From positions 4,878,715 through 4,942,714 of the forward strand of contig OX393557.1 of assembly GCA_947650365.1 (NCBI GenBank): 64,000 nt of DNA. The letters are read 5' to 3'. Positions 54,601 through 60,600 of this stretch are shown one piece after another; the first letter of the stretch is position 1, and every line of letters begins with the position of its first letter. The stretch comes from Chamaelirium japonicum. Taxonomy: Eukaryota; Streptophyta; Magnoliopsida; Liliales; Melanthiaceae. A program made the translations under genes and the position numbers. The notes below the pieces were generated by a model. It did no database searches, had not been told where the DNA came from, and was given only the letters and a program-made list of their open reading frames with translations.

Positions 54601-57600
54601 TGATATCTGGCTTTTGTATTTCTCGAAATCTATATTTTGTTATTTAGGAACTTTTGTTATGTTATTAGTAAAAAAATCATCATGTCACAAATTTTTTTTG
54701 CTTCTTGTTTTTAGATATTGGACTACCATCTGGGAAGTCGCTCTTTCAACTTCAAGCTGAACGAATTTTATGTGTGCAAAGACTTGCAGCTCAATCCACT
54801 GATGGTAAGGTTTATTAGTTGAACATTTTTGGCTCTATTTATCAGTCAGGTAAATCTTATAGCTCTATTACTGGCAGGTTCAGCTGGTTTTGTGCCAGTT
54901 CATTGGTACATAATGACTAGCCCATTTACTGATGATACTACCCGCAAATTTTTCGAAAGCCATAAGTATTTTGGCCTGGAAGCTGATCAAGTAAATACTT
55001 GGACATCCTTTTCAGATTAAAATATGAATTGCTACTGGGCTGACACATTTTCTGATGCAGGTCACCTTTTTCCAACAAGGCACTATTCCCTGTGTTTCTA
55101 GGGATGGCAGATTTATTATGGAGACGCCTTACAAGGTATGGTCACTTCTTTATTTGTAATGTTTGAGTCTGAATATTGCTCATGAAATTAAGATTTGCAT
55201 CTAAATTTTGTTCCTCTCAATTATTTAGCTTTGTTATGATTATTGCTCATTATTTTCTTGAGGACATTGGATTCCAATTTGAATGCTCATTCACCGACAT
55301 GAAATAAAGGGACTTTACAAAACCTTCTCTTTATTATCATGATACAAAAACCATCTTCTCTTTAAGTTATGCAGCGAACTGTGGTACAAACGTTTAGGCT
55401 AAGTCTACAAAATCTTAGTAGAGATATACAATATATGATATTGGAACGTGCAGACCATATATGGGGTCCATCAGTCCATGTTGACACAGACTCAACTGTT
55501 GACATGCATTAAAACTGTTTATGAGTGCTTTTCCCTTTTTAGCCTTTTAGTTGCATGAAATTCAAAGAAAAGGCATTAACACATGATACTTTCATAGGAT
55601 AATTTTCAGGGTGGGATGGGCATGATGTTCCTTTACTTGATCCAATATTATTGTCATTCTCAAAAAGTTGTCAGATTTCTTCATAATGTGTTCACATGTC
55701 ATGATTGATGTTACGAAGAGAGAGGGAGAGAGCGACTAGCGTTTGGGGAGAAACTCCTTGTATTATCTCATTGTATATCACATTACATAAGACTACCTCT
55801 CCTTATATAGAGAGAGAACGCACACCATTACAATACCACAACTAAGGTGGGACTAATAGTAACTCTACATCTAATAATTGATATGAACTGATACTTAAGT
55901 GTTTCATGGACGCATATATGGAAATCAAATTAGACACATTTCAAGATGTTTGAATCAAGTGGAAAAATATGATGCAGGAGCATGCTTTTTTTTTTTGCTT
56001 CTCTATTTAGGTTAATGCTCGTGTCTACAATAACATACATACAGTTTATGGTTTAAAATTTTAGCTGTAAGTTTCATCATCTAATGCTTTTCAGCGTTTT
56101 GGCTAGTCGAAAAGTTTCAGTTCACGAGTCTGATTAAAGTTATTAAACCCACTTCATTTCTGTCTAAACATGTGAGTTTTGGTTGAAACCGACTGAAGCA
56201 AACCCAGATAAAATACGCTTCTTTTCAGTTGTTATCCCATTTCATTTCAAGCCTTGTTTGTAGTAAAACAAAAGGACGAGAAAGGAGTGTTGTTTGACCA
56301 ATTTTGTGCAGACATGTGGATTGATTCTGTACCTTCTTGAAGATCTTCACAATCTGTTCAATTTATATAAAAATATTAAAAGTCAAGGCTTAATCGTGCG
56401 TGCAACATGCAAGAACTAAACATTTCACAAGTGATGCATGCATTTTTTGGGTGGTGGTGGTGATTTCCCGAATTTTTTTTTGCTAAATTTGCATAAATCT
56501 GAAAATCATGTCTATAGGTACACAAATATCATGGAGTTTTTGTTTCTTGTACTCGAGGCCCGATCTACCCAACCCCATATTTATTATTTCTTGACATAGA
56601 GTTGCAATTTATGTTTAAATATTAGTCAAAATATGTGATCTATACATAACAAAATTACTACAACAAGCTTGTATGGTCAAAACATGCATGCATATTTTGA
56701 ATTATAAAATATATTCTAATATCTAATATTATGAAATAGTTTTTTTAAAAAAATACTTACATATTTCAAATTAATTTATAGGGCAAATTAAAAAGTAATG
56801 ATGCCACATGCATTTCTCAAATATGTAATTTTTAGCCCAAAAAGAATTACAAGTGCAATGTTTCATTTAATTGAATCCGACTGCTTATCCACGGGGAAAT
56901 TAAATGGCAATGGTGCCATATGCATTTCCCAAATATGTAATTTTTAGACTAGAAAGATTTATTAGATAAGTGGAGGTTTCATTTGATTGAATCCGTCTGC
57001 ATATGTACCGAGCTCCCTATCATTTTAATCCTAACAAACAAGCGTTGTTCCATCTTTTCGGATTTGACTTTATGAATCATTCTCGCTAGTAGCTCATTTG
57101 AAGGCTATCTTTATTGCAAGTCCAACTTCCATTATTATCAATTTAGGCCTTCCCATCAAAGTCAAGGGCTATCTCCTTATCATTGTTTAGCAACATTAGG
57201 TTAGTTCCTGTGAGTCTTTAATTGAACTCTTTACATCGCTAGAGAAGCTAGACCAACACACATGCCCTAACTATCTCCAGTTGTTGAGGTATGCACGACG
57301 GGTGCTTGGACTATATATGGGGGAACGAGAGCCTGGACCTCAGGTGCAGCATTCATGCTGCACCCGTGCCCTGCATGAATGCCACGTGCTGGTTGCGCTG
57401 TGCGCTGCGGCGGAGTAAATGAGCTGCGACCTGTGTCCGTCTGATCGAAATGAATCAAACGGCATACCGAATCCTGCTCGATATAACCGGCTACAACACA
57501 CAGAAATCTGTTCGATTTCCATCCGTTGGATCGATGGGAATCGTACGGACCAAAAAAAATTCGTTGTTACTGTAGCGGCTATAGTAACAACGAATTTAGT

Positions 57601-60600
57601 TTGGGCCGTTCGATTGCAATCGATCCAACGGATGGGACGATTGTTGTGTCCGTTCGATTTCCATATGTTGGATCAATGGGAATCGAACGGACCAAACTAA
57701 TTTCGCTGTTACTGTAGCGGCTACAGTAAAAGCGAAAAATTTTTAGGCCGTTCGATCCCCATCGATCCAACGGATGGAAATCACTAGGACCCATTTGTGT
57801 TCATTCAATTTCCATCCGTTGGATTGATGGCAATCGAACGGACCAAAATTGATTTGCTGTTACTGTAGCCGCTACAGTAATAGCGAAATTTTTTTAGTCC
57901 GTTCGATTCCCATCGATCCAACAGATGGAAATCGAACGGGATTTCTGTGTGCTGTAGCCGGTTATATCAAGCGGGATTCGGTGTGCCGTTTGATTCATTT
58001 TGATCGAACGGACACAGGTTACAGCTCATTTACTCCGCCGCAGCGCACAACGCAACCAACACGTGGCATTCATGCAGGGCACGGGTGCAGCATGAATGCT
58101 GCACCTGAGGTCCAGGCTCCCCTTCCCCATATATATATATATATATATATATATATATATATATATATATATATATATATATATATATATATATATATAT
58201 ATATGGGCATGCTATAATGCGACATGCGGTAAGTGCGGCACCGCATAATAGCCTTCTGATGCACCACTGCGTGCATCGCATGCACACAACGCGTGCATCA
58301 GACGGCTGCGGTGCAGTGCCGCACGTACCGCATGCCGCATTATAGCACGCCCATATATATATATATATATATATATATATATATATATATATATATATAT
58401 ATATATATATATATATATATATATATATATATATATATATATATATATATATATATATATATATATATATATATATATATATATATATATATAGAGAGAG
58501 AGAGAGAGAGAGAGAGAGAGAGAGAGACCCCCTCTAGTGCGCACCTTTGGTGCGATTCGAGCACCGTGGGCCACTTGGTTTAATTTGTATGATTGTGATG
58601 CATTGTTTGTTCGGTGCATGCATTGCACCTATACATATGTTTGCTATCTAACACTATACGTTGAGGCGCCTTATTGCATATGTTGCAGTGCTTCCAGTGC
58701 ATATGTTGCCCCACATAGAGCACAACAAACATCATATGTTGTGCTCCGTGTAGGGTGTTGCAACACTTCCAGTGCATATGTTTCTGGTCTGGGTCACAGG
58801 GGCTAGGTCGAACCAAAGGTGAGCACTTGAGAGTATATATATATATATATATATATATATATATATATATATATATATATATATATATATATATATATAT
58901 ATATATATATATATATATATATATATATATATATATATATATATATATATATATATATATAGGGGAGCGTGACTTTGTATGCCCATGCTTTGAAGGCTTG
59001 AATGTATGCTCCTCTATTAACATACATAGAGGTTTCCAAATTTGCTAATTTTTTGTGGAGATGATATCTATATTGAGATGATCATCCTCACAAAAAATCA
59101 TCAAGTGATGAAGCCTCTAAGCATTTCAAATAAGCTTATCAAATTAACGTTTGAAATGGACAGACGATACAACTTTTATCACCTAGAGTTTTCAGAATTT
59201 GCTGATTTTTGTTGAGGGTGTTTATCTTGCTATAGATAGCATATCCACAAAAAATCAGCAAGTTCTGAAACATCTAGATCCATCAAAATGTTAGAAGCTT
59301 TATCAGCCATCCATTTCAACTGTTAATTTGATGAGCTTATTTGAAATGCTTACAGGTTTCAGAACTTGCTGATTTTTTGTGAGGATGATCATCTCAACAT
59401 AGATATCATCTCCACAAAAAATTAGCAAATTTGGAAACCTCTATGTATGTTAATAGAGGAGCATACATTGAACCTTTCAATGCATGGGCATACAAAGTCA
59501 CGCGCCCTTATATATATATATATATATATATATATATATATATATATATATATATATATATATATATATATATATCATTTTGATGTATGCAGGAGAATTT
59601 GATTTGCTGCTTTCAATTTTGCCCTTTTGTGTAACAAGTCTCCTTTTGATAATTTTACGTCCATAGCATCGATTGGTGCTAAGTGTGAAGCCGGGAGCAT
59701 CAATGATTGAATAATGATGTGGAAGTTGCAGTCCGGTGGAGTTTTTTGTACCTCCATCCACATCCTTTCCATCTATCTTTTTTAATTTTTCGAATGTAAG
59801 GGTATTTCCTTGAAGATGGTACTTGCCTCCTTTCACGTAATTTGCTGACAGTCTTCGCAACGATATGTGGTTTACTGAAGCAAGGAGAGGTAATTAGCAT
59901 AACCATATGATGGACAATGAGTTTGTTTTAGAGTCTAGAGTTGAGTCCTGAGTTATAGAATTTAGAATACATTGAAGTACAATTTCTCGTGTAACAGAAG
60001 CGACTGGAACATCTGTAATTGATAAAGAACCTCAGTGGTGAATGGTGATGTAGCAAACTAAGGGGGTCGATCAGATCGACCGACATATCTCAGCTGTAGT
60101 TAAATGTTAACTCAATAAGCTTCCTTGTGGTTGTATCTTCTCACCCTCTTATCGGACCTTATATTCGTTGGAAAGATCGTTTCAAGATGTACAATGCTCT
60201 TGTCCAAATTTTGAAGTTTTAGGGGTCAAAGAGTGGACGGAATTTTCATTTATTATTTATGGACTACAACTAGCTTCATCTAATTTCTGGTATTTTTCTT
60301 ATTTGGGAAGTTGTTTGTTAGGGTTTTAATAGCAGCAAAAAATTCTTCTTAGTTCTAGTCTATATCAAGTGTTATCTGTGTTTCAACTTGGTGGGGCCTC
60401 TTTTTTGAATGAACTAAAATGCTTTTTTGCAGCTTTTCTGCTGAGTATATTAAATTCATCCCTGTTCTTTGCTGAAATTGATTCATTTTCCTCTTATTTT
60501 GATCTATCATGTCAGATTTTTATCCTGACTTTAAGGTTGTCATTCATTTTGGCTTTGATATCAGTGATTGGGACTTTGCCCATTGTTCTATTTTCCTTTG

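Follow-up and report, generated by a model that had tools for sequence, protein, structure and literature searches.

We analysed a 64-kb stretch of Chamaelirium japonicum DNA (hereafter the window), which carries at positions 57312-59575 an array of four foldback elements, C, D, E and F, joined by TA microsatellites. With high confidence, we regard this array as a stack of four non-autonomous Mutator-like elements (MULEs), that is, MULE-derived miniature inverted-repeat transposable elements (MITEs) of the microsatellite-targeted sort to which SaTar, MuTAnT, Ac-mMITE and MiM belong, and this confidence includes the mechanism proposed below. The phenomenon is already known from SaTar (PMC5907723), Ac-mMITE (PMC8449440) and MuTAnT (PMC4486113); new, within the literature that we searched, are an end rule shared by families taken as "unrelated" and the recombination of cores with ends.

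The proposed mechanism starts from a Mutator-type transposase acting in trans, which would most likely recognise the elements by a short and degenerate signal at their ends (G[GA]GG, with G8 and with TG at positions 15-16). An element would insert into a short TA repeat, where the 9-10-bp target duplication would itself be TA and hence invisible. The TA tract would then lengthen in repair or through later slippage and become a larger target, and further elements of any family with the end signal would land beside the first, so that an uninterrupted array grows. In this scheme, the transposase, the lengthening of the tract by slippage or repair and the sequence in which the four elements arrived in the window are inferred.

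Composition of the C-F array

Read directly from the sequence, the block consists of four elements, all given on the forward strand, and four tracts. Element C (57320-58128) is a foldback with ends GGGGAACGAGAGCCTG and GGGGAAGGGGAGCCTG; its arms of 189 nt are 93% complementary, its core is a palindromic repeat of about three 151-bp units, and its left edge has a short TATATAT only. A (TA)n tract of 76 bp (58129-58204) leads to element D (58205-58352), a 148-bp hairpin with a DNA-fold z of -10.9, in which the first G of the family end GGGGCATGCTATAATG is absent. The D-E junction of 175 bp (58353-58527) is (TA)n at 58353-58493 and (GA)n at 58494-58527. Element E (58528-58833), whose family ends are GAGGCCCCCTCTAGTG and GAAACCCTCAAGTG, has terminal inverted repeats (TIRs) and a weaker foldback (DNA-fold z -5.5), and the right end of the window copy is partly lost. 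After a (TA)n tract of 128 bp (58834-58961) comes element F (58962-59508), a foldback with ends GGGGAGCGTGACTTTG and AGGGCGCGTGACTTTG, which sits within a 287-nt inverted repeat (92%) that includes flanking TA and is followed on the right by 67 bp of (TA)n (59509-59575). These coordinates confirm a sequence-only reading of this DNA, which had described four foldbacks strung end to end between (TA)n or (TA)n(GA)n tracts.

The same reading had called the four foldbacks unrelated, and this was only partly the case. In blastn at E 1e-3, none of C, D, E and F matched another; however, F has an internal hairpin unit in common with elements A and B of a second array in the window, and the multi-copy families share an end rule, as described below. 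Elements A-F are short (148-809 bp) and have TIRs; they are judged non-autonomous by their length, which leaves no room for a transposase gene. None of the six, as read, was interrupted by another element; other loci were not systematically checked in this respect, and fused or truncated ends occurred at L032 and L136. All six TA tracts of at least 8 units in the window adjoined an element end or its short GA/TC extension. As a control, 6,024 positions were sampled in the rest of the window, away from the arrays, and TA of at least 5 units started within 25 bp downstream of 8 of them.

Dispersed copies and their target sites

The 1.52-Gb source assembly was searched with the whole block and with single elements. 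Among the best 40 of 8,609 candidates scored for the block, the full query (1-2264) was covered by the window alone, the next best match covering 1-1106. Other loci carried C, D and F in different, independent orders and mixtures and with other neighbours, and C, D, E and F are four separate dispersed families. The idea that the 2.3-kb block is one composite unit, moved or duplicated whole and present at many loci, is therefore refuted here, within this assembly and on the evidence of the 40 candidates scored, and we give it virtually no probability. Local duplication can nevertheless copy arrays: L065 and L066 (C8:17101835 and C8:17094164) are tandem copies of one complete multi-element array and differ in tract length (17 vs 29 bp beside F), a duplication that yields no empty site. 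Two copies of another long array, L014 (C2518) and L015 (C3:75872695), were 92-99% similar, and the TA between the same two elements was 18 bp in L014 vs 122 bp in L015.

For the single-element searches, 40 places each were scored from 607 (E), 3,074 (F), 3,650 (D) and 2,491 (C) candidates, and flanks were read for 87 copies other than the window's own (29 E, 29 F, 20 D and 9 C). Since these copies are the ones most similar to those in the window, older ones may give other fractions; the pairs L014/L015 and L065/L066 are counted with both members, and one side of L011 was N. Of the 87 copies, 71 had a microsatellite no more than 25 bp from each end (E, 21/29; F, 25/29; D, 19/20; C, 6/9) and 2 had one at neither end (L063 of family F and L089 of family C); among the D and E copies read, none was without a microsatellite at either end. 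Copies elsewhere are thus bounded by microsatellites. Of the three findings that the sequence-only reading had named as refuting it, namely copies without TA flanks, empty sites without a TA microsatellite and the whole block as one repeat unit at many loci, none went against it. In addition, an exact 27-bp F end was found 51 times genome-wide, 39 times directly after TATATATA, and (TA)8GGGG occurred 12,753 times compared with 95 for the reversed control. The copy flanks, the window control and the (TA)8GGGG counts rule out that hairpins and TA lie side by side by chance. Tracts connected the element at 51 of 60 focal loci with one or more further repeated, tract-bounded elements, the runs comprising 2-11.

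The F copy at L063, which lacks TA, was flanked by two perfect copies of CACAAGATAA, a 10-bp target-site duplication (TSD; 10/10 bp) of the kind that is the hallmark of Mutator elements, and its element ends read GGAGAGCG and GCTCCCC. Target duplications in the Mutator range measure 9-11 bp. Published lengths are 8-11 bp in PMC5907723 and, for the elements described there, 9 nt in PMC4486113 and 9/10 bp in PMC8449440.

A natural series of empty and occupied sites was provided by the F insertion at L055, whose joined flanks matched a dispersed repeat (copies e.g. L112-L136) with TA at a fixed position. The search with these flanks scored the best 40 of 2,382 candidates and gave 35 listed places of the site including L055, of which 26 were read: 8 were short empty copies, 6 were long empty copies, 1 had a duplicated host segment and 11 were occupied. 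The tract was 6-12 bp in the short empty copies, TA in all except one with GT, and was a TA tract of 44-122 bp in the long ones, so that empty copies of this one paralogous site do carry a tract. The occupants were F (L055), D-like elements (L127, and L128 with two elements), D plus further sequence (L133), an A-like element (L129), C-like elements (L131 and L136), an element with GGATCC ends around a B-like hairpin core (L130) and other elements at L132, L134 and L135; at least five element families have used this site. The nine remaining places were judged by coordinates; 7 spanned the site with -13 to +42 bp extra and 2 were undecided. The 11 occupied copies together with the short-tract empty copies indicate that several families entered one pre-existing short tract, and the earlier suggestion that elements landed repeatedly in the same TA target holds at this site.

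Tracts were longer in the occupied copies and in some of the empty ones than in the short empty copies, and we conclude that elements land in short pre-existing tracts, which lengthen. The empty tracts of 44-122 bp might be excision scars, given the gap between them and the 6-12-bp class, with 14 empty copies being too few to decide. Alternatively, the elements could create the TA themselves, carrying it at their ends and inserting anywhere. The long tracts usual at occupied sites, compared with 6-12 bp in the short empty copies, would fit this, as would the lability of tract length seen in L014/L015 and L065/L066. However, empty copies of the host repeat already have short TA (once GT) at the position that the 11 occupied copies share, and the L063 copy has no TA, so that insertion anywhere with element-made TA is disfavoured and appears very unlikely; expansion after insertion is part of the explanation that we prefer.

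A second alternative is the model of PMC5907723, in which excised circles with TA filler between the ends join genomic TA by homologous recombination and no transposase cuts the target. In its favour, the tracts on the two sides of an element are often unlike in length and kind (GA, CT, GT and TA), and host sequence of about 6-10 bp beside the TA was lost in 3 of the 6 occupied copies with a readable left side (L127-L129). On the other hand, similar loss in 1 of the 14 empty copies (L116) suggests that it is not specific, although these numbers are too small for a conclusion. The short empty copies offer 6-12 bp of TA or GT and hence little to recombine with, and the perfect 10-bp TSD at a non-TA site is likewise difficult to reconcile with recombination. 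We therefore consider recombination of circles improbable, and favour insertion by a Mutator-type transposase.

Shared ends and exchanged cores

The end signal was examined in 742 TA junctions from the loci and the window. Clustering gave 29 groups; once the cluster of the host repeat and a C' cluster that was mis-anchored had been set aside, 27 element-end families remained, and evident relatives were then merged by hand-written rules into 17. This analysis excluded repeat readings of one place (L001, L005, L007-L009 and L039), one member of each duplicate pair (L014, L066 and L100) and the MULE loci (L109-L111). End positions were counted from the first base after the tract, with the last GA kept. 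TG stood exactly at positions 15-16 in 11 of the 17 merged families, the next best column having 5, and within 13-17 in 16 of them. It was at most one base from position 15 in 12 families, compared with a highest value of 11 in 3,000 shuffles in which single letters were permuted within each family consensus. When the 16 families were aligned on TG (13-17) and the other columns were tabulated afterwards, 14 of them had G8 and all 16 had T or G at position 10. Multi-copy families thus have in common an end rule of GRGG, G at position 8 and TG at 15-16. Genome-wide, G8 with TG15-16 was present at 8,970 of the 12,753 TA-GGGG junctions, compared with 412 when TG was moved by two. Among the 12 ends of the window itself, TG was exactly at 15 in 4 and within 13-17 in 8, with the GA tract not counted as part of the end.

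Cores and ends were also exchanged between families. Positions 72-743 of C, its core, occur in a C' family with other ends; in the eleven places read that matched the C core only (L098-L108), an end of the GAGGTGTGTTAGGTTGCG type was present at least once in 11/11 and on both sides in 8. Conversely, the outer 71 bp of C belong to a GGGG(A/G)CGGGGAGCCTG end family that was found on other cores at L014/L015, L102 and L105. A tally by simple sequence signatures covered 249 tract-bounded segments and used the 127 with like ends, leaving out 42 whose two ends fell into different classes and 80 in which an end was unclassified. Within these 127, the hairpin core had F-type ends in 19 and four other end types in 4, 3, 3 and 2, and the C core had GGGGACGGGG ends in 6 and GAGGTGTGTT ends in 5.

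The sequence-only reading had left a choice between one mobiliser with loose end recognition and several. The common end rule and the recombined cores and ends favour one loose mobiliser or a few relatives. The other possibility is that several unrelated transposases, each with its own families, have converged on TA microsatellites. The end families do differ beyond the short motif, there are orphan junctions without the motif, and MuTAnT, TAFT and Micron were judged independent in their habit in PMC4486113. The position of TG in the merged families and the occurrence of the same cores with different ends nevertheless argue against convergence, which we regard as rather unlikely. A bolder proposal is that one transposase or a close group is so undemanding in reading a degenerate end of 16 bp (GRGG-NNN-G-N-K-M-NNN-TG) that this end, placed on both sides of any DNA hairpin, makes the hairpin mobile and directs it to TA. 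The 17 merged end families and several of the cores would then form one interchangeable system in which ends and cores are swapped, with TA tracts as self-enlarging landing pads. We hold this proposal tentatively, giving it somewhat less than an even chance.

Several observations weigh against a stack of Mutator-like elements with a shared end signal. The only clear TSD is that of the F family at L063, and the C copy without microsatellites (L089) had no convincing duplication. The empty allele of the window array was not found, its joined flanks having no spanning match elsewhere, and the same applied to the joined flanks of L007, L018 and L063. The 70% of TA-GGGG junctions that carry G8 with TG15-16 genome-wide counts many copies of few families. 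The end rule is absent in one of the 17 families (GGGGAGGGATACTC) and at the right end of B. Held-out orphan junctions, defined by no similarity (E 0.05) to any family consensus, numbered 130 of 784, or 86 after relatives were removed; these 86 non-redundant TA junctions had no TG15 peak (4/86; 0/27 of those with G-rich starts), indicating that the end rule holds for multi-copy families only. Finally, an autonomous element was not found among the MULE-domain places read. All 150 places scored for the MULE domain, of 1,214 candidates, were over the cut-off, and the 3 that were read had neither TA tracts nor matching ends within 6 kb; two of these three look like putative single host genes.

Window context and known systems

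The second array of the window begins with a further element on the reverse strand (9537-9603), represented by an end of the GAGGAATGTTACAGTG family; its other end was not located. It adjoins a (TC)n(TA)n(GA)n tract (9604-9742) left of element A (9743-10259, forward strand), which has a GAGGCGTGTTAGGCTG-type and a AAACGGGAAATGAG-type end. A second (TC)n(TA)n(GA)n tract (10260-10350) joins A to element B (10351-10924, forward strand), whose ends are of the GGGTCAGGATTC type and GGGTCGGGATCC, then TATATATAT. The internal hairpin is common to A, B and F, whereas their ends are not shared.

The host of the C-F array is a UDP-GlcNAc-pyrophosphorylase-like gene, part of which spans 54672-62900 on the forward strand; the array occupies one of its introns, about 7.7 kb long, with exon peptides at about 54.7-55.15 kb and then at about 62.87 kb. 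Exon peptides on both sides of the array agree with the earlier placement of all four foldbacks in one intron. The gene was identified by a PDB sequence search, in which the joined exon peptide matched chains 9g53_B (E 4e-31) and 4bma_A (E 5e-31); a Pfam scan of five exon-like peptides gave no match. Just upstream of these exons, a 197-bp unit forms a near-perfect tandem duplication (53911-54295). Elsewhere in the window, a 65-bp unit is arrayed in about 14 tandem copies (35211-36132), and tandem duplications with 151-bp and 93-bp units lie in a GC-rich stretch (25466-25770 and 24943-25119). Judged by the open reading frames (ORFs) alone, the ORF at 15300-16436 reads like a putative non-LTR (long terminal repeat) retrotransposon product and that at 29909-30475 like the end of a putative copia-type polyprotein.

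Of the known systems, SaTar of guayule, rice, sorghum and citrus (PMC5907723) is likewise made up of short, non-autonomous TIR elements of the MULE type; members of different families form arrays without interruption, with TA or other microsatellites at the joints, and some have 9-10-bp TSDs. At some of the insertion sites in rice, the other subspecies has a TA tract with no element in it, which resembles the empty sites described here. SaTar-type features in the present genome are that most copies are flanked by microsatellites, that the arrays are multimeric and not one copied unit, and that a member outside microsatellites has a 10-bp TSD. SaTar differs in plants and sequences and in having defective autonomous partners, of which none was found here in the three MULE-domain places read; a shared end motif and core/end exchange are not mentioned in the sections of that paper that were consulted. 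Ac-mMITE-1 and -2 of pineapple (PMC8449440) are also TA-flanked MULE-derived MITEs in non-nested clusters, with copies having 9/10-bp TSDs and with (GA)n/(TC)n beside the ends, explained there by slippage of a terminal GA. They form two families with similar TIRs, compared with 17 merged end families here, and no autonomous partner was found for them (PMC8449440).

MuTAnT/AutoMuTAnT of Medicago (PMC4486113) resembles the present elements in its TA target, foldback TIRs, variable GGGG ends and 9-nt TSD in rare non-TA copies, and its empty sites have about 9 TA units with longer flanks when occupied. Its TIR search mask, GGGGTTTGCTAGAACA, fits GRGG, G8, T10 and A11, but has CA and not TG at 15-16, and it has a known autonomous element, whose transposase is Jittery-like. 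Micron of rice and TAFT of maize, which the sequence-only reading had named for comparison, also insert into TA microsatellites (PMC5907723, PMC4486113) and are likened here by description only; the phenomenon is wider, since arrays of unlike elements joined by TA are reported for SaTar (PMC5907723) and pineapple (PMC8449440). In addition, MITEs inserted in microsatellites are cited for ten of 41 plants in PMC8227079, which itself reports 15 families from carrot. By titles and openings of abstracts, no paper in the literature searched reports an end motif common to families of this kind, supplements and most subscription papers being outside this search.

For the stacking of unlike elements in shared TA tracts, PMC5907723 proposes recombination of circles. 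The genome studied here offers more than 12,000 TA-GGGG junctions, and a dispersed repeat that serves as a natural insertion assay with empty, expanded and occupied versions. Furthermore, a precise end rule predicts which elements one transposase should move. Together, the number of junctions, the natural assay and the end rule make the question of one loose mobiliser or many directly testable.

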